From Flavobacteriaceae bacterium (GTDB lineage Bacteria; Bacteroidota; Bacteroidia; Flavobacteriales; Flavobacteriaceae), in NCBI GenBank assembly GCA_947446635.1, contig CANFHF010000001.1, positions 141,926 through 205,925 of the forward strand: 64,000 nucleotides of DNA. Reading direction: 5' to 3'. A model generated the notes under the pieces. That model did no database searches and was not told the DNA's origin. It saw nothing but the letters and a program-made list of their open reading frames with translations. Shown in pieces: positions 3,196-64,000 of the stretch (position 1 is its first letter; each line of letters begins with the position of its first letter). The translations under genes were made by a program, and so were the position numbers.

Positions 3196-5097
3196 ATGGA
3201 AGAAAAAAAATTAGACCTCAATTCGATTATTGGTTTCCTATTAATTTTTGTAATCTTAATTTGGATCATATATCAAAACCAACCTACAGAGGCAAGCATT
3301 GCGGCCGAAAAAGCGAAGAAAGAACAAGTTGTAAAAGAAGAAAAAGCCAATCAGCTTGTTGCGCCTCCAGCTGCGGCTGAACCTGTAATTGTTGCCGTGG
3401 GCGACACTTTGCAATTGGCTCAAGCCAAAAAAACCTTAGGTAGTTTTGCTTATTCTGCAACACTTCCATCGGCAAAAGAGGGTTTTACAACCATCGAAAA
3501 CGAATTGGTAAAACTGAAAATTGCTAATAAAGGCGGTTATATCGTCGAGGCTACTTTGAAAAGCTTTGAAAAATTTAAGAAAGGTTCTGGTCAGTTGGTA
3601 GAACTAATCAAAAATAATAATGCTGATTTAAACATTCAGTTGCAAACTAGCGATAACCGCACCTTAAATACCAAAGACCTTTATTTCGAACCGAGTTTAA
3701 CAAAAGTTGGTGAAGATCAAATACTCTCAATGAAATTAAAAGCGGGTGCCAATGAATTTTTAGAATACAAATACATTTTGAAGCCAAAGGAATATATGGT
3801 AGGTTTCGACCTTCGTTCCCAAGGCTTGAACAAAGTTTTGAATACCGCTAAACCATTGGATTTAGAATGGAATTTGAAATCTTTCAGAAACGAGAAAAGT
3901 GTTTCGTATGAAAATCGTTATGCAGAGGTTCATTATGAATATGAAGATGGAAAAACGAATTATGTAGGCCAAGGAAAAGATAAAGAAGAAACGCCGGTAA
4001 AAGTGAGTTATATTGCCTTCAAACAGCATTTTTTTACTTCGATATTATTGACCGACAAACCCTTTGAAACTTCAAAACTACAATCAAATAATCTTGTTGT
4101 AGATGAAACTGTCGATACCACTTTCACCAAACAATTTAAAGCAAGTGTTCCTTTGGCTTTTACAAATGGTGAAATTGATTATAATTTGAATTGGTATTTT
4201 GGCCCGTCGGATTATAAAACATTAAAAGCGTACGATAAAAATCTAGAAAAAGTGATTCCGTTGGGATGGGGGATTTTCGGATGGATTAATAAATTTATTT
4301 TCATTCCATTGTTTGGATTTTTAAGTTCTTACATTGCGTATGGTGTTGCCATTATTGTTTTTACTATTTTGATTAAAATTGCGATGTCACCTATTACTTA
4401 TAAGTCCTTTTTGTCGCAAGCCAAGATGAAAGTATTGCGCCCGGAAATTACAGAGTTGGGCGAAAAATTCAAAAAGGATGCAATGAAAAAGCAACAGGAA
4501 ACCATGAAGTTGTACAACAAAGCGGGAGTAAATCCGATGGCGGGTTGTATTCCGGCTTTGATTCAAATACCATTTATGTACGCTTCGTTTCAGTTTTTTC
4601 CATCGGCTTTTGAGTTGAGACAAAAAGGTTTTCTTTGGGCAGATGATTTATCTTCCTTTGACCAAGTAATTAAATTGCCTTTTCATATTCCTTTGTACGG
4701 GGATCATATTAGTTTGTTTCCAATATTGGCAGCGGTAGCTATTTTCTTCTACATGAAAATGACTTCTGGCGACCAACAAATGGCAGCCCCGTCACAAGAA
4801 GGTATGCCAGATATGGCTAAAATGATGAAATACATGATTTACATCTCTCCAATCATGATGTTAATTTTCTTTAATAGTTATGGCGCGGGATTGAGTTTGT
4901 ACAACTTTATTTCTAACTTGATTACTATTGGAATTATGTTTGTGATTAAAAACTACATTGTAGATAGCGAAAAGATTCACGCCCAAATCCAGGAAAATAA
5001 ATTGAAAGAGCCTAAAAAACAAGGCAAGTTTCGACAAAAACTACAAGAAGTCATGGAGCAGGCTGAAGCTCAAAAGGCAAAGGACAAAAAGAAATAG
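3196..5097 (+). CDS. yidC: Membrane protein insertase YidC
   Basis: 633 aa; N-terminal TM, large periplasmic domain, conserved ...MAGCIPALIQIPFMYASFQFFPSAFELRQKGFLWADDLS... Confidence 0.97.
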   Translation: MEEKKLDLNSIIGFLLIFVILIWIIYQNQPTEASIAAEKAKKEQVVKEEKANQLVAPPAAAEPVIVAVGDTLQLAQAKKTLGSFAYSATLPSAKEGFTTIENELVKLKIANKGGYIVEATLKSFEKFKKGSGQLVELIKNNNADLNIQLQTSDNRTLNTKDLYFEPSLTKVGEDQILSMKLKAGANEFLEYKYILKPKEYMVGFDLRSQGLNKVLNTAKPLDLEWNLKSFRNEKSVSYENRYAEVHYEYEDGKTNYVGQGKDKEETPVKVSYIAFKQHFFTSILLTDKPFETSKLQSNNLVVDETVDTTFTKQFKASVPLAFTNGEIDYNLNWYFGPSDYKTLKAYDKNLEKVIPLGWGIFGWINKFIFIPLFGFLSSYIAYGVAIIVFTILIKIAMSPITYKSFLSQAKMKVLRPEITELGEKFKKDAMKKQQETMKLYNKAGVNPMAGCIPALIQIPFMYASFQFFPSAFELRQKGFLWADDLSSFDQVIKLPFHIPLYGDHISLFPILAAVAIFFYMKMTSGDQQMAAPSQEGMPDMAKMMKYMIYISPIMMLIFFNSYGAGLSLYNFISNLITIGIMFVIKNYIVDSEKIHAQIQENKLKEPKKQGKFRQKLQEVMEQAEAQKAKDKKK

Positions 5098-5103
5098 TTT
5101 ATT

Positions 5104-5133
5104 AAATCCCGATATTTTCGGGATTTTTTTTAT
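5104..5133 (+). terminator. Rho-independent terminator after yidC
   Basis: AAATCCCGA-TATTT-TCGGGATTT plus T-tract. Confidence 0.85.
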
Positions 5134-5182
5134 TGAAATAATTTTTCCGGATTTAATCCGTTTAGTGTAAAAAGACAGTTTT

Positions 5183-5896
5183 ATGATAACATTTTATAAA
5201 AGAGGTATATCCATTTTTATTTTTTTAAATGTGTTTTGTATTCAAGCACAAAACAATTTGAATAAACTGGATGAAAAAGGAAATAAACACGGACTCTGGC
5301 AAGGTATTTATGAAGATACCAAAAACCCAAAATACGAAGGAACTTTCGAACACGGAAAAGAGATAGGAGTTTTCACTTTCTTTGATAATACACGAACTAA
5401 AACCATCGTTGCTACAAGGGAATTTAGCCCAAAAACAAACGAAGCATACACGATTTTTTACGACCAAGGTAAAAATAAAGTCAGCGAAGGAAAAGTGGTC
5501 AATAAATTATTTGAAGGTTGTTGGAACTACTACCATAAAGCTTCAAAAGCCATAATGACTATCGAAAATTATACCAATGGTAAGTTGGAAGGGTTGCGAA
5601 GTGTTTTTTATCTGAACGGGAAAATCGCTGAAGAAATCAATTATAAAAACAACTTAAAAGACGGTATTTGTAAAAGATATACTGAAACTGGAATTGTAAT
5701 TGAAGAGTCCGCATACAAGAATAACGAATATAATGGTGTTGCCACTTTCAAAGATTCTGAAGGAAATCGTGTTTCTAATGGGAACTTTGTAAACGGCAAA
5801 AAAGCAGGCGTCTGGCAGTTTTTTGAAAAAGGAAAATTAATCCAAGAGGAGGATATGAGTGCGCCGCAAAGGACATCAGAAATCAAAAACAATTAA
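5183..5896 (+). CDS. Secreted MORN-repeat (YwqK-like) protein
   Basis: 237 aa; signal peptide (FLNVFCIQAQ) and repeated G-x-W/L-x-G / Y-x-N-G-K-x-x-G motifs. Confidence 0.75.
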   Translation: MITFYKRGISIFIFLNVFCIQAQNNLNKLDEKGNKHGLWQGIYEDTKNPKYEGTFEHGKEIGVFTFFDNTRTKTIVATREFSPKTNEAYTIFYDQGKNKVSEGKVVNKLFEGCWNYYHKASKAIMTIENYTNGKLEGLRSVFYLNGKIAEEINYKNNLKDGICKRYTETGIVIEESAYKNNEYNGVATFKDSEGNRVSNGNFVNGKKAGVWQFFEKGKLIQEEDMSAPQRTSEIKNN

Positions 5897-5968
5897 GTTT
5901 TTCCATATTCAAATCCTGTAATAAATCTTTGTAACTTTGGTCTCTTATAAAATTGTAATTATTTTAAA

Positions 5969-7156
5969 ATGAAACGTGTAGTTGTTGGGCTTTCTGGCGG
6001 GGTTGATTCGAGTGTTGCGGCTTATTTGTTGCAGCAGCAGGGTTATGAAGTCATTGGTCTTTTTATGAAAAACTGGCACGATGATTCGGTTACAATTTCT
6101 AATGAATGTCCGTGGCTTGAAGATAACAATGATGCCCTATTAGTTGCCGAAAAACTGGGTATTCCTTTTCAAACTGTTGATTTAAGCGAAGCGTACAAAG
6201 AAAAAATCGTGGACTATATGTTCAACGAATATGAAAAAGGGCGAACTCCAAACCCCGATGTACTTTGCAATCGAGAAATAAAATTCGATGTTTTCATGAA
6301 AATTGCTTTAAGCCTTGGTGCCGATTATGTGGCAACGGGTCATTATTGCCGAAAAGGAGAAATAGAAGTTAACGGCAAGAAAGTCTATCAACTTTTGGCT
6401 GGAGCCGATACCAACAAAGACCAATCCTATTTTCTTTGTCAATTATCACAAGAACAATTAGCTAAATCTTTGTTTCCAATAGGGGAATTGACCAAGCCAG
6501 AAGTACGAGAAATTGCCACTCAAATGGATTTAGTTACTGCCGAAAAGAAAGATTCACAAGGATTATGTTTTATTGGAAAAGTAAGATTGCCAGAATTTTT
6601 ACAGCAAAAATTGCAACCTAAAGAAGGATTAATTATCCAAATTGACAAAAACGATTCGATTTATATTTCGGAAGTCCAACAAGGCCTTTCTATAGAAGAG
6701 GAACTTCTGTCTGACGCTAAAAAAATAGATTATACTCCTGAGATGGGAAAAGTTGTTGGTAAACACCAGGGCGCCCATTATTTTACCACTGGCCAACGAA
6801 AAGGCTTGAATGTGGGAGGAACAACAGATCCTTTATTTATAATTGCGACAAACGTAATCACAAATACCATATATACTGGATTAGGGAGTCAACATCCAGG
6901 ATTATTTAAAAAAGCTTTGTTTATTGTGCAATCTGAGGTGCATTGGATTCGAGCTGATTTGGCTCTAGCCAATAGCGAAACTATGGAAGTAATGGCGAGA
7001 ATTCGATACCGCCAACCATTACAAAAAGCAATTTTACACCAATTTGAAAGCGGAATGTACGTAGCTTTCGAAGAACCACAATCGGCAATCACCGAAGGGC
7101 AATTCGTGGCTTGGTATTTGGATGATGAATTAGTTGGTTCGGGAGTTATTGCCTAA
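5969..7156 (+). CDS. mnmA: tRNA-specific 2-thiouridylase MnmA
   Basis: 395 aa; [20 protein letters not shown]-loop, [19 protein letters not shown]. Confidence 0.98.
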
Positions 7157-7182
7157 ATTAGTTCTTAATTCCAAAGATAAAC

Positions 7183-8799
7183 ATGAAAAAAATAGTCGTT
7201 TTTTTATTTTTAGTTTCCTGTTTTATTGGCTTTTCGCAAGAAGATGCATGGGTATATTTTAAAAACAAACCAAATTCGGAAACTTATTTAAGTAATCCTT
7301 TGACCATGCTCACTCAAAGAGCTTTAGATAGGAGAACAACCCAAAATATTCCTTTGGATATTTCAGACGTTCCAATTTTCCAATCGTATATTAACCAAAT
7401 AACCGCTTCTACTGGAATTACGGTCAAAGCCAAATCAAAATGGTTGAATTGTCTTCATATTCGAGGCACACAAGCCAATATTAATGCGCTGAAATTAGTG
7501 TCTTTTGTTGATCATGTTGATTTTGCAAACCACTTACTTAATGTGGCTAAAACTACTTCAGCAAAACAGGTTCAATTTATCCCTATAAACAAGATTTTGG
7601 AAACAGCCATAAACTTCAATTATGGATCGGCTTCCAATCAAATTCAATTGCTAAATGGGCATTTATTACATCAATTAAATTACACGGGTTCTGGAAAAAT
7701 AATTGCCGTACTAGATGCTGGTTTCCCAGGAGTTAATACAGCACAACCTTTTCAAAGGTTATTTACCAATAACTCCATCCTTGATGGATATGATTATGTT
7801 AATAAAAGTGCTAATTTTTACACAGGAGGTTCTCACGGAACATTGGTTTTATCAACCATGGGAGGTTTTACGGACGGTCAGTTAGTAGGAACGGCACCAG
7901 ATGCAAAGTATTATTTATTCATCACAGAAGATGACAACTCCGAAAACCCGGTAGAGGAATCCAATTGGGTTGAGGCCGCCGAAGAGGCCGACCGATTAGG
8001 AGTTGATATTATAACAAGCTCTTTGGGGTATTTTGGTTATGATAATCCAAATTATAGTCACATTTATTCCGATATGACAGGGAATTCTGCATTTGCTTCA
8101 AAGGGAGCTAATATTGCCTTTAGTAAGGGGATATTAGTCGTTGCCAGTGCTGGAAATGAAGCATTAACTTTTGAACCCCACGTTGGAGTTCCCGCCGAAG
8201 CAACAAATGTTTTGGCTATTGGGGCGGTAAAAGCGGATAAAACGTATGCTGCATTTAGCTCTATTGGACCGAGTTTTGATAATCGGGTAAAACCTGATGT
8301 AATGGCTCAGGGACAAGCATCGGTTTTATCCGATGTTTCCGGAACTATTACAATTGCAGATGGAACTTCATTCTCTGGACCCATATTGGCTGGAATGGCA
8401 GCATGTTTATGGCAAGCTTTTCCCGAAAAAACCAATAAAGAAATCAAACAATTAATCACCCAATCGGCAGATAGATACGCTGCGCCAACAAATCAATATG
8501 GCTATGGGATTCCGGATTTTAATTTGGCTTTAAGTCAAGGATTGTCTATTACTTCTTTTTCAAAAAATGATTTTGTAGTTTATCCCAATCCAACAAGCGA
8601 TTCTGTATCAATTAGTTTTCCAGAAGGTTTTGATGCAGGAACTATTAATCTTTATACAGATGTAGGACAAAACGTTTTGAAAATAAAAATCTCTAGTCAA
8701 TCGCCCACTTTTTCATTAAAGTCTTTAGATAAAGGAATTTATTTTTACAAAATAGAGTCAAATGGCCAATTCCAAAGCGGTAAAATTATAAAACAGTAG
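7183..8799 (+). CDS. Secreted subtilisin-like S8 serine peptidase with T9SS type A C-terminal sorting domain
   Basis: 538 aa; signal peptide; catalytic Asp (IIAVLDAGFPG), His (GGSHGTLVLSTMGG), Ser (DGTSFSGPILAGMAA); C-terminal VVYPNPTSDSVSI...LKSLDKGIYFYKIESNGQFQSGKIIKQ. Confidence 0.93.
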   Translation: MKKIVVFLFLVSCFIGFSQEDAWVYFKNKPNSETYLSNPLTMLTQRALDRRTTQNIPLDISDVPIFQSYINQITASTGITVKAKSKWLNCLHIRGTQANINALKLVSFVDHVDFANHLLNVAKTTSAKQVQFIPINKILETAINFNYGSASNQIQLLNGHLLHQLNYTGSGKIIAVLDAGFPGVNTAQPFQRLFTNNSILDGYDYVNKSANFYTGGSHGTLVLSTMGGFTDGQLVGTAPDAKYYLFITEDDNSENPVEESNWVEAAEEADRLGVDIITSSLGYFGYDNPNYSHIYSDMTGNSAFASKGANIAFSKGILVVASAGNEALTFEPHVGVPAEATNVLAIGAVKADKTYAAFSSIGPSFDNRVKPDVMAQGQASVLSDVSGTITIADGTSFSGPILAGMAACLWQAFPEKTNKEIKQLITQSADRYAAPTNQYGYGIPDFNLALSQGLSITSFSKNDFVVYPNPTSDSVSISFPEGFDAGTINLYTDVGQNVLKIKISSQSPTFSLKSLDKGIYFYKIESNGQFQSGKIIKQ

Positions 8800-8876
8800 C
8801 TTTGTAATTCTATAAATGAATAGTATTGTCCCATTTTTAGAATGATATTTCTAATTTCACTCCATAAAATTATAGT

Positions 8877-10487
8877 ATGAAAAATTATTTTTTGTTTTTG
8901 GTATATATTGCAATTACCTCCGCTGAAGCACAACAACGTCCTAAATTAGTAGTGGGTATTGTTGTTGATCAGATGAAAATGGAGTATTTATATCGTTTTT
9001 CAGATGATTTTTCTCCTAATGGTTTCAGGAGATTAATAAATAATGGTTATACGTTTCCAAACATGCATTATAACTATATGCCCACATATACTGGTCCTGG
9101 ACACGCTTCTATTTATACAGGAACAACGCCTTCAACTCATGGAATTATAGGAAACGAATGGTTTAGCCGAACTTTAGGCAAAGAAATATATTGTACGGAC
9201 GATGTTTTGGTTAAAACTATTGGCGATGGAACTTCAAAAGAAGGGGAGATGTCTCCCAAAAATCTCCAAAGCACGACCATCACAGATGAATTGCGATTGG
9301 CTACCAATTTTAAAGGAAAAGTAATAGGAATGAGTTTAAAAGATAGGGGGGCTATTTTACCTGCAGGACATTTTGCCAATTGGGCTTTTTGGTATAGCAA
9401 AACCGGAGCATTTATTTCCAGTACTTTTTACGGTAATAAATTACCGGATTGGGTAACTGAATTCAATCAGGAAAAAAGATATATGCCCTACATCAATACA
9501 GGTTGGGATTTGTTAAAACCAGTAGCGAACTATAATGAAAGTCTTGCGGATAATAATCCCTATGAAGGAAAAGTGAATGGTGAAAAACCTGTATTTCCGT
9601 ATGATTTAAAAGCAATGTTTGATAACAATGACGCTAGTATTTTGCGGGCAACTCCTTTTGGAAATGATTTATTAGCGGAATTTGCTAAAAAAGCAATTGA
9701 AAAAGAGGAATTAGGAAAAGACAACATTACGGATTTTCTGACTATTAGTTTTTCTTCGACAGATTATGTGGGGCATATTCTAGGACCTCGTTCGATGGAA
9801 TTGCAAGACACTTATTTGCGACTGGACCAAACAATTGCCGATTTTTTGGTTTACTTGGACAAGGCCGTTGGCAAAGCTAATTATTTACTTTTCTTGACTG
9901 CAGATCACGGAGGTGCAGAAAACACCAATTACTTGAAAGATAATAAGTACGCCGTTACTAATATTGAACCAAAGGAAATTAGAAAGGCTTTAAAACAATA
10001 TTCTATTGATACTTTTGGAGAAGATTTGGTCTTGAATTATTCTAACTTTAACGTATTTTTCAATAAAGCGATTATAAAAGCCAAAGAATTAGAATTGGTA
10101 AAAGTAAAGCAATCCTTCAAGGACTTTTTGATGACACAAGAACAAGTTAAAAGAGTCTATTCTGAAGAAGAAATTCTAGGTTCAAGCGGAAATGATTACT
10201 ATTTAAATTTTATTGCTAAGGGCTATGATTCCAAACAAAATGGAGATTTAATTGTATTGGATAAGCCAGGATATATAGAATACGGAGCCACCGGAACCTC
10301 TCATGGAACAGCGTATAGCTATGACACGCATGTGCCGTTATTATTTTATGGATGGCATATTAAAAAAGGGGAGTCGTTTGACAAAAAAGCAATAACACAA
10401 ATTTCGCCAACGCTCTCACAAATGCTAAAAATACCTTTTACGAACGGAACAGAAGCTAAAGTTCTTGAAGAAATTTTAGGGAAATAA
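8877..10487 (+). CDS. pafA: PafA-like alkaline phosphatase family protein
   Basis: 536 aa; signal peptide, nucleophile region GPGHASIYTGTTPSTHGIIGNEW, metal-binding FLTADHGGAENTNYL and GTSHGTAYSYDTHVPLLFYG. Confidence 0.88.
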   Translation: MKNYFLFLVYIAITSAEAQQRPKLVVGIVVDQMKMEYLYRFSDDFSPNGFRRLINNGYTFPNMHYNYMPTYTGPGHASIYTGTTPSTHGIIGNEWFSRTLGKEIYCTDDVLVKTIGDGTSKEGEMSPKNLQSTTITDELRLATNFKGKVIGMSLKDRGAILPAGHFANWAFWYSKTGAFISSTFYGNKLPDWVTEFNQEKRYMPYINTGWDLLKPVANYNESLADNNPYEGKVNGEKPVFPYDLKAMFDNNDASILRATPFGNDLLAEFAKKAIEKEELGKDNITDFLTISFSSTDYVGHILGPRSMELQDTYLRLDQTIADFLVYLDKAVGKANYLLFLTADHGGAENTNYLKDNKYAVTNIEPKEIRKALKQYSIDTFGEDLVLNYSNFNVFFNKAIIKAKELELVKVKQSFKDFLMTQEQVKRVYSEEEILGSSGNDYYLNFIAKGYDSKQNGDLIVLDKPGYIEYGATGTSHGTAYSYDTHVPLLFYGWHIKKGESFDKKAITQISPTLSQMLKIPFTNGTEAKVLEEILGK

Positions 10488-10530
10488 ACAATCGGGTATT
10501 TTAGAATAGTTACTTTAAAAGAATAAAAAA

Positions 10531-10562
10531 AATCCCATTTCATTTTTTGCTGAAATGGGATT
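10531..10562. terminator. Bidirectional terminator between convergent pafA-like gene and lysA
   Basis: AATCCCATTTCA-TTTTTTGC-TGAAATGGGATT with A-tract on the left. Confidence 0.8.
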
Positions 10563-10571
10563 CGGTATTTA

Positions 10572-11789
10572 TTAGACTGCCGCTACTATTGGCAACGGAA
10601 TTTGATTTCTGAGTAAATCTTCAAAGGTTTCATGTGACCTAATTAAATGCCCTTCACCATTTAACCACAATACTTCGGCGGGTTTGTAACGAGAATTATA
10701 GTTAGATGCCATCGAGAAGCAATAGGCTCCCGCATTTCTGAAACTTAAAAGATCCCCTTCGTTGATTTCAGCAATTTTTCGGTTGTTGGCAAAAGTATCC
10801 GTTTCGCAAATGTAGCCCACTACAGAGTAGAAACGCTCTTTTGCTTTTGGATGTGAAATGTTTTCGATATGGTGTTGTGAACCATAAAACATTGGTCGAA
10901 TCAAGTGATTGAAACCGCTGTCAATTCCAGCAAAAACAGTAGAAGTAGTTTGCTTTACCACATTTACTTTGGCTAAGAAATAACCAGCTTCGCTTACTAA
11001 AAATTTTCCAGGTTCGAAAATCAAGGTCAAATCTTTACCATATTCTTTACAGAAAGCATTAAATCTTTTGGATAATTTTCTGCCTAATTCTTCAATATCA
11101 GTTTCAATATCGTCTTTTTTGTAAGGCACTTTAAATCCGCTACCAAAATCTAAAAACTCTAAATTCTTGAAGTTTCTGGCTGCATCAAAAAGAATTTCCG
11201 CAGCATATAGGAATACTTCAATATCCAAAATATCAGAACCCGTGTGCATGTGGATTCCAACGATGTTCATTTTGGTATTTTCAACAATACGAACCAAATG
11301 CGGTAATTGATGAACAGAAATTCCAAATTTACTGTCGATATGTCCTACCGAAATGTTGGCATTTCCGCCTGCCATAACGTGAGGGTTGATTCGAATGCAA
11401 ACAGGAACGCTTGGATGTTTTGTTCCAAATTGTTCTAATATAGATAAATTGTCAATATTGATTTGAACTCCCATTGAGGATACCTCTTCAATCTCTTCGA
11501 GAGAAACTCCATTTGGCGTAAAAAAGATTTGATCGGGTGAATAACCTGCATGAAGACCTAGTTGCACTTCTTGGATGGAAACCGCGTCTAAACAAGAACC
11601 GCATTCTCTCAACAATTGGAGAATAGCAATGTTAGACAAGGCCTTCATGGCGTAATTGATACGCAATTTTTCTACTTTAGAAAAAGCACTTGTTAATCTT
11701 TTATATTGAGATTGGATTTTTGCCGCATCATATACGTATAATGGACTACCGAATTGTTCTGCTAATTGTACTAAGTCTTTCGCTTGCAT
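10572..11789 (-). CDS. lysA: Diaminopimelate decarboxylase
   Basis: 405 aa; PLYVYDAAKI, NYAMKALSN (PLP Lys), GIHMHTGSDI, FEPGKFLVSEAG. Confidence 0.95.
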   Translation of the reverse strand: MQAKDLVQLAEQFGSPLYVYDAAKIQSQYKRLTSAFSKVEKLRINYAMKALSNIAILQLLRECGSCLDAVSIQEVQLGLHAGYSPDQIFFTPNGVSLEEIEEVSSMGVQINIDNLSILEQFGTKHPSVPVCIRINPHVMAGGNANISVGHIDSKFGISVHQLPHLVRIVENTKMNIVGIHMHTGSDILDIEVFLYAAEILFDAARNFKNLEFLDFGSGFKVPYKKDDIETDIEELGRKLSKRFNAFCKEYGKDLTLIFEPGKFLVSEAGYFLAKVNVVKQTTSTVFAGIDSGFNHLIRPMFYGSQHHIENISHPKAKERFYSVVGYICETDTFANNRKIAEINEGDLLSFRNAGAYCFSMASNYNSRYKPAEVLWLNGEGHLIRSHETFEDLLRNQIPLPIVAAV

Positions 11790-11969
11790 TGTACTTTTTT
11801 TGACAAATTTATTACTCTTTATCGATACTCACAAGGGGAATACTGAAAACTAACAAATTATAACAAAATGTTTCAAAATAAACATACATCGTTATAATAG
11901 CAAATTTTTTAAACAAAAAAAATACCTTGAAATTTCTTTCAAGGGATTTTATAAATATTTTAGGTTGTA

Positions 11970-59424: not shown

Positions 59425-60099
59425 TTGAGTCCCTTAAAACTACCTCTATTTTACTTTTTTTCTTCAACAGTAGCCCAACTTCAATATCAATACGCTGAAT
59501 TATTATTGATTGGTTCTATTGTTGTTAGTTCTATACTAATTGGTTTTATTGTATTTTTCTTTAGATTTAATAAAATCAAATCAAAAGAATTACATGTTTT
59601 ATTAAAAGAAATTGAATTATTTAAATCAGAAATTATAGAAAACAAGAAGGTGATCTCAAGCTTTAAACAAACGGAAATAATAAAGGAACGAGAGTTTATA
59701 GCTATTAATTTAGAATTAGCTAATATTCAGAGCTCTATTGGTGTTATTATTGATGAAGCTACGATGCATTCTCAACAAATCAAAGAACCTAAATTTATAA
59801 ATCTTATTAAGGACATTCGTTTCGTGCTTTCTCGAAAAGATTACTGGAATGAGTTTAGGTTGAAATTCACTCAGACACACCCTAATTTTAATACTGCTTT
59901 AAAAGCAAGATTTCCGAATCTTTCTCCAAAAGATATTAGTTTTTGTAGTTTAATTAAATTGAATTTATTAAACAAGGAAATTGCCTCCATGCTACAAGTG
60001 TCCCATGAAAGTGTTATTACTAAAAAATATCTTTTAAAGAAAAAGCTTAAACTTACGGCCGATCAAGACCTTATTAAGATTATTAATGATTTCGATTAA
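59425..60099 (+). CDS. Membrane-anchored coiled-coil protein with C-terminal LuxR-like HTH (putative transcriptional regulator)
   Basis: 224 aa, TTG start; TM LLIGSIVVSSILIGFIVFFF, coiled coil, C-terminal FPNLSPKDISFCSLIKLNLLNKEIASMLQVSHESVITKKYLLKKKLKL. Confidence 0.75.
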   Translation: MSPLKLPLFYFFSSTVAQLQYQYAELLLIGSIVVSSILIGFIVFFFRFNKIKSKELHVLLKEIELFKSEIIENKKVISSFKQTEIIKEREFIAINLELANIQSSIGVIIDEATMHSQQIKEPKFINLIKDIRFVLSRKDYWNEFRLKFTQTHPNFNTALKARFPNLSPKDISFCSLIKLNLLNKEIASMLQVSHESVITKKYLLKKKLKLTADQDLIKIINDFD

Positions 60100-60721: not shown

Positions 60722-61207
60722 ATGAAAATGAAGTATATTTTAATTCTATTGTTTGCATTTAATTTAAATGCTCAAAAACTTCACCATCAAATGTTATCCG
60801 CACAGGCTAGTAGTGCAAAAACAACTAATGGTAGAATGGTAAAACAAACTATTGGGCAGTTAAGTGTAGTTGGTAATTCTCAAAATAAGAAAATTGCTTT
60901 TAGTCAAGGTTTCCAACAGAGTAATACTAGAAAAGTTGCCCCTTCAAGCGTCAAAAGTTTAATTGTGACAACTTTATACCCTAATCCAGTAAGCGATTTT
61001 ATTAATTTTAAATTTTCGACTTCAATTAAAGGGCCTGTAAAAATTGCCTTTTTTGATCTATTAGGTAGAAAAGTATTTTCTACGGAAAAAGAAGCCCTTC
61101 AAAATAATATCTCCCTTAAGGATATTAATTTATCACCGGGTGAATATATAGTAAAACTTAATGCTCTTAATTATGAATACACAACCAAAATACTTAAAAT
61201 AAAATAA
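60722..61207 (+). CDS. Small secreted protein with T9SS type A C-terminal sorting domain
   Basis: 161 aa; signal peptide ILILLFAFNLNAQ; VKQTIGQLSVVGN...FSQGFQQ motif; CTD TLYPNPVSDFINFKF...FFDLLGRKVFS...INLSPGEYIVKLNALNYEYTTKILKIK. Confidence 0.85.
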   Translation: MKMKYILILLFAFNLNAQKLHHQMLSAQASSAKTTNGRMVKQTIGQLSVVGNSQNKKIAFSQGFQQSNTRKVAPSSVKSLIVTTLYPNPVSDFINFKFSTSIKGPVKIAFFDLLGRKVFSTEKEALQNNISLKDINLSPGEYIVKLNALNYEYTTKILKIK

Positions 61208-61208
61208 A

Positions 61209-61832
61209 ATGAAAAAAGTAACACTATTAATTGTAGTTTTTATTTCGTTCGCTAAAAGCTACTCGCAAGAAATTTATTTACAAACCGGGAGAAATTTTAC
61301 TTCGTATTCTTATAGAGGCGATAAGGAATATGATTTCAAAGCATCAGTTGGTAATTCCTTTGAAATTGGGCATTCTAAACATTTTAAAAACGTATATTGT
61401 TATACACTTGGATTGACGCTTAATGAGTATAATGCTGTTACTAATGAAGGACCAACTATTCTTTCAAGTTATAATACTCAATATTTAGGGATACAAAATT
61501 CAATTCAATTAAGAGTCTTTAAAATTAAATTTGTAGAGGTTGATGCGAAAGCCGGGATTAATATGGCTACTATTTTATATGGTAAAAACACCCAATTAGG
61601 GTTAGGTTCTGCAAATGTATTGGTTAATGATTTGACCAAAGCAGAAGCATTTAAAGGACTTGTTTTTCAACCTGTATTAGGAGTTGAGGCTAAATTAAAA
61701 CTAACGCCTCAGGGTTATTTGTCTGTTGGGTATAACAGAACAAATAGTTATAATTTATCAAATACTAAACGAATTGAGGATTACAAATTTAAAACAGACC
61801 AAATTTCATTTGGTGTTCATTTTCAAAAATAA
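61209..61832 (+). CDS. Putative outer-membrane beta-barrel protein
   Basis: 207 aa; signal peptide; alternating beta pattern (YSYRGDKEYDFKASVGNSFEIGHSKHF...YLSVGYNRTNSYNLSNTKRIEDYKFKTDQISFGVHFQK, terminal aromatic). Confidence 0.65.
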   Translation: MKKVTLLIVVFISFAKSYSQEIYLQTGRNFTSYSYRGDKEYDFKASVGNSFEIGHSKHFKNVYCYTLGLTLNEYNAVTNEGPTILSSYNTQYLGIQNSIQLRVFKIKFVEVDAKAGINMATILYGKNTQLGLGSANVLVNDLTKAEAFKGLVFQPVLGVEAKLKLTPQGYLSVGYNRTNSYNLSNTKRIEDYKFKTDQISFGVHFQK

Positions 61833-61847
61833 TTTAAAATAACAATC

Positions 61848-64000
61848 ATGAAAAAAATTCTACTATTTTTATTCTTTTTAGGAACTTCGGCCTTTTATGC
61901 ACAAACACGAGGAATTACCTATCAAGCAGTTATATACAATTCCACCCAACAAAGTTCGGCGGGTATAACTAATGTAAGCTCTCCTTTGTCTAATAAGCCA
62001 GTTTGCTTACGATTTACTATTACAGATTCTAATTCTAATACAGAATACCAAGAGACGATTACCACTAAGACCGATGAATACGGTATGGTAAATTTAATCA
62101 TTGGTACTGGAGATCAAACAAGAGGTTATGCTTCATCGTTTGATGGAATCGTTTGGGATGAAAATCAAAAAAACTTACAAGTTGCCGTAGATACAAATGG
62201 GTTGTGTTCTTCATTTGAAGAAATTAGCAACCAGGCACTTACTGCTGTGCCTTTTGCATTTAATGCTAATACAGCAATTACGGCCTACAGTGCTGAAAAT
62301 GTTACTGGAATTGTACCTATTCTTAATGGAGGTACTGGAGCTACAACCGTTAATGGTGCCAAAACTAATTTTGGTTTAGATAATGTAGATAACACAACGG
62401 ATTTAAACAAGCCTATTAGTACTGCTACAAAAACAGCTTTGGATGTTTTAACTACTGGAGCTGCAACAGAGAAATCAGATCGAATTGCTGCCGATGTCAT
62501 TTTAACTACAGGAGCTGCAAAAGAAGTTACAGATCGTACTTTTGCTGATACTGTTTTAACTACAAGTGTAACTACTGAAAGAGACGCGCGTACTGTTGCT
62601 GACAACACTTTAACTACAAGTATAAATACCGAAATTGCTAATCGTACCGCTGCTGATTTACTTTTTACTAAGGCAGTAAATGATGAAGCAGTTGCTCGTG
62701 CAACTGAAGACACGGCTATAAATAGTAAATTAACTGGTGAAATAGCAAGAGCTGGAAATGCGGAAGGCGTTTTAACTGCTGGTGCTGCAACAGAGAAAAC
62801 AGATCGAATTGCTGCCGATGTCACTTTAACTACAGGTGCTGCAACAGAGAAATCAGATCGAATTGCCGCTGACGTAATTTTAACTACAGGAGCTGCAACA
62901 GAGAAATCAGATCGAATTGCTGCTGACTTAATTTTAACTACAGGAGCTGCGACAGAAAAATCAGATCGTTTAGCTGCTGAACAAATTTTAACCACAGGAG
63001 CTTTAACAGAAAAATCAGAGCGTACATTTGCTGATATAATTTTGACTACAAGTGTAAATACTGAAAAAGATGCTCGTATAGCAGGGGATACTACTTTGTC
63101 TGCAAGTGTAACTGCTGAAAAAGATGCTCGTACCGCTGCTGATGCCCTTTTTACTTCAAGTGTAAACAATGAAGCATTAGCTCGCGCTACCGAAGATACA
63201 AATATTAAAAGTAACTTGGTTGCAGAAACAACTAGAGCAACTATTGCTGAAGGTGTTTTAACTACGGCTAATGCAGCTAGAATAGCTGACATTGCTACCT
63301 TAACGTCAAATATAAATACTGAAAAAGATGCACGTATTAATGGCGATGCTACTTTTGCTGCAAGTGTAATTACTGAAAGAGACGCACGTATAGCAGGGGA
63401 TGTAACCTTAACTACAAGTATAAATACCGAAATAGCTAATCGTACCGCTGCTGATGTACTTTTTACTACGAGAGTAAATGATGAAGCATTAGCTCGTGCT
63501 ACTGAAGATACAGTTATTAATGGTAAATTAGTTACAGAGACAGCTAGAGCAACTGAAGCGGAAAGAGTTTTAGGGGTAGGAGCTGCAAAAGAAGTAACAG
63601 ATCGTTTAGCCGATGTGAATGCTGAAGAATTAGCACGTACAAATGCAGATATTGTCTTAACGACTGGGGCCGCTAAAGAAATAGTAGATCGAATTGCCGC
63701 TGCCACTCTTGAAAATACAGCTCGCTTAGCTGCAGAAGGAGTTTTAGATGGAAAAATCACTACAGAAAAGAATGCTCGTATTGATGGTGATGCTACAGAG
63801 AAATCAGATCGTTTAGCTGCTGCTACTCTAGAAAAAACGGATCGTGTAAATGCAGAAGGAGTTTTAGATAACAAAATCACTACAGAGAAAGATGCTCGTA
63901 TCAGTGCAGTTAGTGCAGAAGCTTTAGCTCGTACTACAGCTGCCACTCTCGAAAATACAGCTCGCTTAGCTGCAGAAGGAGTTTTAGATGGAAAAATCAC
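61848..64000 (+). CDS. Large secreted phage-tail-fibre-like repetitive stalk protein (partial; runs off the window)
   Basis: Open from ATG 61848 to the window end, at least 717 codons, no stop. Signal peptide MKKILLFLFFLGTSAFYAQ; domain GITYQAVIYN...VCLRFTITDS...EYQETITTKTDEYGMVNLIIGTG...LTAVPFAFNANTA; tail-fibre-like linker ILNGGTGATTVNGAKTNFGLDNVDNTTDLNKPISTATKTALD; then 18-aa coiled-coil repeats. Absent from the supplied ORF track. Confidence 0.9.
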   Translation, partial: MKKILLFLFFLGTSAFYAQTRGITYQAVIYNSTQQSSAGITNVSSPLSNKPVCLRFTITDSNSNTEYQETITTKTDEYGMVNLIIGTGDQTRGYASSFDGIVWDENQKNLQVAVDTNGLCSSFEEISNQALTAVPFAFNANTAITAYSAENVTGIVPILNGGTGATTVNGAKTNFGLDNVDNTTDLNKPISTATKTALDVLTTGAATEKSDRIAADVILTTGAAKEVTDRTFADTVLTTSVTTERDARTVADNTLTTSINTEIANRTAADLLFTKAVNDEAVARATEDTAINSKLTGEIARAGNAEGVLTAGAATEKTDRIAADVTLTTGAATEKSDRIAADVILTTGAATEKSDRIAADLILTTGAATEKSDRLAAEQILTTGALTEKSERTFADIILTTSVNTEKDARIAGDTTLSASVTAEKDARTAADALFTSSVNNEALARATEDTNIKSNLVAETTRATIAEGVLTTANAARIADIATLTSNINTEKDARINGDATFAASVITERDARIAGDVTLTTSINTEIANRTAADVLFTTRVNDEALARATEDTVINGKLVTETARATEAERVLGVGAAKEVTDRLADVNAEELARTNADIVLTTGAAKEIVDRIAAATLENTARLAAEGVLDGKITTEKNARIDGDATEKSDRLAAATLEKTDRVNAEGVLDNKITTEKDARISAVSAEALARTTAATLENTARLAAEGVLDGKI
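62448..64000 (+). repeat. 54-nt (18-aa) tandem repeat array with 11-residue-step length variants
   Basis: About 25 units read by eye, consensus LTTGAATEKSDRIAADVI; lengths 18, 14, 29 and 40 aa. Still running at the window end. Confidence 0.93.

Follow-up and report, generated by a model that had tools for sequence, protein, structure and literature searches.

A putative MAT-type surface fibre of Bacteroidota at a contig end, with exchanged tips and conserved partner genes

A fibre gene cut by the assembly

At the right-hand edge of the stretch of Flavobacteriaceae DNA analysed here (the window, 64,000 nucleotides; G000:C1:141926-205925), a gene joins a signal peptide to segments resembling phage tail fibres. 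The question arises, what is such a protein in a bacterium and how would it reach the cell surface? We propose, with a probability of roughly 0.72, that the gene encodes a truncated long surface fibre of the mosaic adhesive trimer (MAT) type, found in bacteria with type IX secretion (T9SS), and that a small protein carrying a C-terminal sorting domain (CTD), together with an outer-membrane barrel, exports and/or anchors it.

The forward frame is open from the ATG at 61848 to position 64000, and 61848-63998 encodes 717 amino acids without a stop. The fibre protein (61848..64000, forward strand), recognised by its open frame and its homologues, is at least 717 residues long and lacks its 3' end. 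As the sequence-only reading pointed out, it had been missing from the ORF track; it is listed only once ORFs running off the end are permitted, and the antisense ORF found here (62285-64000) is a mirror of the fibre gene's repeats. Given that contig C1 itself stops at 205925, the gene is cut by the assembly and not merely by the window. The contig breaks off within a stalk of 18-residue repeats, and the tip of the window fibre is absent from the assembly. The final 41 bases of the contig are an exact repeat of bases 240 bp upstream, which points to an ordinary repeat break. Homologues of the fibre were found in 28 of 60 related genomes and at 79 loci from named records, the latter mostly Flavobacterium but including Crocinitomicaceae, Pedobacter, Pricia, Nonlabens and Winogradskyella. 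Many fibre genes are broken in assemblies, the sequence stopping within the fibre at 29 of the 79 named loci, so that annotation probably underestimates the family. In a 1.9-Mb single-contig genome from another family of the same order (G048), the base domain query gives 21 matches.

The protein begins with a Sec signal peptide (MKKILLFLFFLGTSAFYAQ; 61848..61904, forward strand), as had been claimed; it is evident by direct reading and appears as a helix at residues 2-16 in the structural model. Behind a base domain, discussed below, follows a linker of the phage tail-fibre type (AENVTGIVPILNGGTGATT...NVDNTTDLNKPISTATKTALD; 62280..62440, forward strand). The likeness to phage segments noted earlier is borne out: the LNGGTGATT...NVDNTTDLNKPISTATKTALD linker has matches in 226 phage records, Flavobacterium phages accounting for 38, and the matches listed fall mostly in genes for minor tail proteins or tail fibres. 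The remainder (62441..64000, forward strand) is the stalk, whose autocorrelation peaks at 18 residues, with a self-identity of 34% at lag 18 and 31% at lag 36; its DNA has a period of 54 bp, with tandem arrays of 54 bp and 120 bp. The long repeat stalk described from the sequence is thus present with a strong 18-residue period, and its helical nature is suggested by that period, since 18 residues make five turns of 3.6. Such a period is compatible with a straight coiled coil, probably a trimeric one. Pfam matches to Ubiquitin_2 and Phage_Hfq inside the repeats were set aside as chance repeat matches.

Base domain and tips

Between signal peptide and linker lies the N-terminal base domain (about residues 20-140; 61905..62265, forward strand). 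Fifteen relatives align across approximately 140 residues of it with 13 invariant columns. The earlier reading had recognised this type of domain from many uncharacterised Bacteroidota surface proteins, and close homologues indeed occur in many genomes. An AlphaFold model predicts a beta-rich domain of seven strands, with residues 51-130 mostly at pLDDT >90. A fold search of PDB and BFVD with this model gave no match at E<=1e-3, and sequence searches with fibre and base found no solved structure. NF053851, the NCBIfam profile of the Bdellovibrio MAT N-domain, matches the window base at E=1.8e-6 with the signal peptide and 4.7e-5 without it, and distant Bacteroidota proteins at E down to 8e-13 without signal peptide (L138). 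The scores (27.8 bits for the window, 48.5 for the best distant Bacteroidota protein) stay below the curated cut-off of 60 bits and the matches extend over about the first half of the profile; we therefore claim homology to the MAT superfamily and not membership in the Bdellovibrio subfamily. This comparison was made through NF053851 only and not with Bdellovibrio MAT sequences directly. The full-length window protein shows no match to NF053851, probably owing to repeat-composition correction. Our own family profile, A1, finds distant Bacteroidota proteins at E about 1e-18 to 1e-29. By these sequence comparisons the window base domain is homologous to the MAT superfamily N-domain, and the NF053851 search across the phylum detects a MAT-related base in 57 of 200 sampled Bacteroidota genomes, about a quarter.

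In Bdellovibrio, a MAT is built from a signal peptide, a beta-rich domain of approximately 130 residues and a trimeric fibre resembling those of phages, with tips that are swapped (Caulton et al. 2024, PMC10769870). The Bacteroidota fibres are alike in having a signal peptide, a homologous base of approximately 130-140 residues at the same position (beta-rich and directly after the signal peptide), a long phage-tail-fibre-like stalk, exchanged tips that include S74, and several paralogues per genome. They differ in scoring below the curated cut-off, in their T9SS-encoding hosts and in the rarity of S74 tips, as well as in being linked genetically to a small type A cargo of T9SS, frequently joined by a barrel and an AraC-type regulator. 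Judged by profile homology and architecture, the window fibre family is widespread in Bacteroidota and is related to the prey-recognition fibres of Bdellovibrio.

The tip of the window fibre lies beyond the contig end; at the level of the family, tips are exchanged on a conserved base. Clustering 55 complete fibres on their final 110 residues gives 21 tip clusters. Among N-domain pairs at least 90% identical, the tips differ in 9 of 11, several of these pairs being the four tandem copies at one locus (L135) and not all independent events. At that locus (3230-11942) four tandem fibres have bases 92-100% identical and four different tips, with one adaptor and one barrel. Likewise, L047 and L049 have 91% DNA identity from the upstream genes to the end of the base, then tips that are unrelated, and return to 96% identity downstream. 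These alignments show tip exchange, presumably by recombination, with base and partners kept. Secreted proteins of approximately 250 residues, without Pfam match, adjoin the first two L135 fibres. A similar small secreted protein follows the L049 fibre (7608-8045), whose tip type is that of the first L135 fibre.

The sequence-only reading had left the C-terminus of the window protein to an S74-type chaperone, a T9SS CTD or a receptor-binding tip. Checked in 45 complete relatives, the S74 option stands for a single protein, the T9SS sorting domain (Por_Secre_tail family) is matched in none, and the tips mostly carry other domains; Peptidase_S74 was not found in the window's genome. Stalks and tips of these 45 relatives hold collagen (12), YadA_head (4), FISUMP (2), OmpA (2) and S74 (1), and further DUF5907, DUF7151, Gly_rich_2 and Lcl_C. 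In bearing collagen stalks, an Lcl_C domain or FISUMP tips, some relatives resemble the collagen-like adhesins Lcl and SclA/B and FISUMP proteins, whereas here these are modules on a shared MAT-type base and not the whole protein. Two fibres (L088:6001-8850 and L103:6001-8994) have an OmpA-type peptidoglycan-binding domain at their end, which is unexpected in a tip that faces outward.

In the window's genome, contigs C1 and C85 end in tip-less fibre heads, and contigs C39 and C48 begin with orphan tips: a type 2 cap at G000:C39:1-513 (L190) and a FISUMP domain at G000:C48:1-371 (L192). These orphan tips may be the ends that the window gene and the C85 gene lack; no sequence overlap linking C39 or C48 to C1 or C85 was found. 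C56 and C7 overlap exactly over 149 bp, and each contains one part of a further fibre gene in this genome; that fibre has YadA-like repeats and ends in the common NGIRIS-type tip.

Partner genes and the link to T9SS

Upstream of the fibre gene, on the same strand, lies a gene for a 161-residue protein (60722..61207) with a signal peptide, a conserved QTIGQ...QGFQQ region and a short type A CTD (Por_Secre_tail E=4.9e-12; TIGR04183 E=1.1e-11). This protein is T9SS cargo by its sorting domain and a candidate adaptor. A small CTD gene lies upstream, on the same strand, of 77 of 81 close-relative fibres at the 79 named loci. In the distant phylum-wide sample, found independently with NF053851 (57 of 200 genomes positive), a CTD gene is upstream of 18 of 22 testable fibres, within 100 bp in 15 of the 22; the distant fibres with no adaptor seen upstream include L052, L143, L161 and L163. 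The window's genome encodes 39 type A CTDs, about 1.8% of an assumed 2,200 genes, and the chance of finding the CTD gene upstream in the distant set is p around 1e-21, treating loci as independent. Modelled separately, the QTIGQ part is detected in 77 of 77 close cases and 8 of 18 distant ones, indicating that the small protein's resemblance thins with distance.

Between this gene and the fibre gene lies a second gene (61209..61832, forward strand), for a 207-residue protein predicted to form an 8-stranded outer-membrane beta-barrel of the OmpA/Ail/NspA kind (AlphaFold pLDDT 85; Foldseek to OmpA E=2e-8). It has no match in Pfam or NCBIfam, and neither family match nor size places it with PorP/SprF. 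The barrel gene is upstream of 64 of the 81 close-relative fibres and was not detected in the distant phylum-wide sample; absent from most distant families, the barrel cannot be essential everywhere. In another family (L051:4742-9075), a fibre follows a small CTD protein and a barrel protein of 379 residues whose C-terminal end is OmpA-like; the triad occurs there in a variant form. Of 76 related loci, 45 have a divergent AraC-type regulator. On the corresponding side, the window has, upstream of the triad and co-directional, a LuxR-type HTH protein (59425..60099, forward strand; weak GerE match) with an N-terminal TM-like segment, possibly a regulator. The conserved fibre neighbourhood of CTD protein, often with barrel and AraC-type regulator, is apparently a new element: a search of the accessible literature found nothing linking MAT proteins to Bacteroidota or describing this neighbourhood.

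SprA is encoded in 57 of 57 MAT-positive Bacteroidota genomes and in 99 of 143 others (Fisher p=7e-8). Phylogeny confounds this association, since the SprA-negative genomes listed come mostly from one family (f31), and the co-occurrence is accordingly consistent with T9SS dependence and no proof of it. No sorting domain was found on the 45 complete fibres scanned, and the C-terminus of the window fibre is beyond the contig end. The Flavobacterium SprB/SprF pairs likewise set a surface adhesin beside a dedicated outer-membrane protein, the adhesin having a type B CTD and a PorP/SprF shuttle (PMC12618676). In contrast, neither a type A nor a type B CTD was found on complete fibres of the window family, the type A CTD sits on a separate small protein, and the barrel is OmpA-like, of about 205 residues.

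Export, anchoring and competing readings

How would the parts work together? The signal peptide indicates that the fibre chain is exported by Sec. By analogy with the MATs, and given a conserved base set against diverse tips, the base would remain in place at the outer membrane, and the phage-like stalk would carry the variable tip outward. From the tip families, the tip may adhere to a glycan, another cell or a surface as its ligand, and tips would be swapped by recombination on a base and partners that are kept. Gene order suggests that the base contacts the small CTD protein and/or the barrel. Since no sorting domain was found in complete fibres, these two partners may export and/or anchor the fibre base. 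Passage of the fibre through T9SS, or docking there, in trans is speculative. PorV carries type A cargo and SprF-like shuttles carry type B (PMC12618676), and neither route covers cargo whose signal sits on a neighbour. We put forward, tentatively, that the small type A cargo binds the MAT fibre base and carries the fibre through, or docks it at, the T9SS exit, the barrel serving as its membrane seat.

Somewhat doubtful, and nonetheless to be weighed, is an arrangement in which barrel and small protein anchor a fibre that crosses the outer membrane elsewhere, the CTD protein being a surface-attached base plate bound after export. The small protein does have a conserved region apart from its CTD, no base fused to a CTD, barrel or adaptor in a single ORF was found among the loci examined, and type A cargo can be surface-attached after export (PMC12618676). 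Against this arrangement, no other export route is apparent, and the domains matched in the fibres include no autotransporter barrel. Moreover, an 8-strand barrel is too narrow to be a channel.

The tips raise a further alternative, that the fibre is a matrix or cell-cell scaffold whose tips cap and trimerise it, tip diversity being an escape from phages or grazers. The commonest tips seem to resemble phage fibre end caps and two are OmpA-type peptidoglycan-binding domains, as such a scaffold might have. We consider it unlikely, given that several modules belong to lectin-like or adhesive families (FISUMP, Lcl_C, collagen) and that the swapping of tips on a conserved base is reminiscent of receptor-binding proteins.

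Is the gene, then, of phage origin? Complete relatives match many PHROG tail fibre families, some of these matches being inflated by repeat or collagen composition, and linker and stalk thus consist of modules common to phages. The base is not seen there: a search for it gave no match in IMG/VR or in 50,697 phage records. Unlike phage tail fibres, with which it shares linker and stalk repeat families, the window family is Sec-secreted and lies in bacterial operons. The ten flanking proteins are all housekeeping (Rho, RsmB/F, a K+ transporter, a GyrI-like protein, peptidase M49, a PRA-PH family protein, a class IV aminotransferase, a methyltransferase, a glutamine cyclotransferase and a short-chain dehydrogenase), and no capsid, terminase or tail gene is among them. 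A prophage or phage-remnant tail fibre gene, suggested by the tail fibre matches, is hence highly improbable in view of the signal peptide, the base not found in those collections, the housekeeping flanks and a non-phage operon conserved in dozens of species. Contractile injection particles also carry tail-fibre-like stalks; their fibres are cytoplasmic, whereas this one has a signal peptide, and no sheath, tube or baseplate gene occurs in the ten flanking proteins scanned or in the neighbour ORFs of relatives, which leaves a component of an injection system or similar appendage hardly credible. Thus, of the sequence-only reading's suggestions, the non-phage context and the cell-surface fibre or adhesin are supported, by family architecture, MAT N-domain homology, tip diversity and the flanks; the contractile or injection-like appendage finds no support, the conserved partners being T9SS cargo, a barrel of the outer membrane and a regulator. 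The MAT relationship of the N-domain, and the conservation of the two genes immediately upstream as partners, go beyond what that reading had noted.

What is added to the MAT fibre principle, known from Bdellovibrio, is a set of MAT-type fibres that occur in T9SS bacteria together with conserved partner genes. The description of MAT fibres came from a predator, and it left the surface partner of their base domain unidentified (PMC10769870). The conserved partner genes are direct candidates for that partner and for the exit route of the fibre. Should a neighbour indeed supply the sorting signal in trans, this would identify the surface partner still missing for MAT-type bases in Bacteroidota. 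Bacterial fibres with stalk modules shared with phages, and with tips swapped on a fixed base, are in addition a ready system for studying how recognition diversifies at the cell surface.
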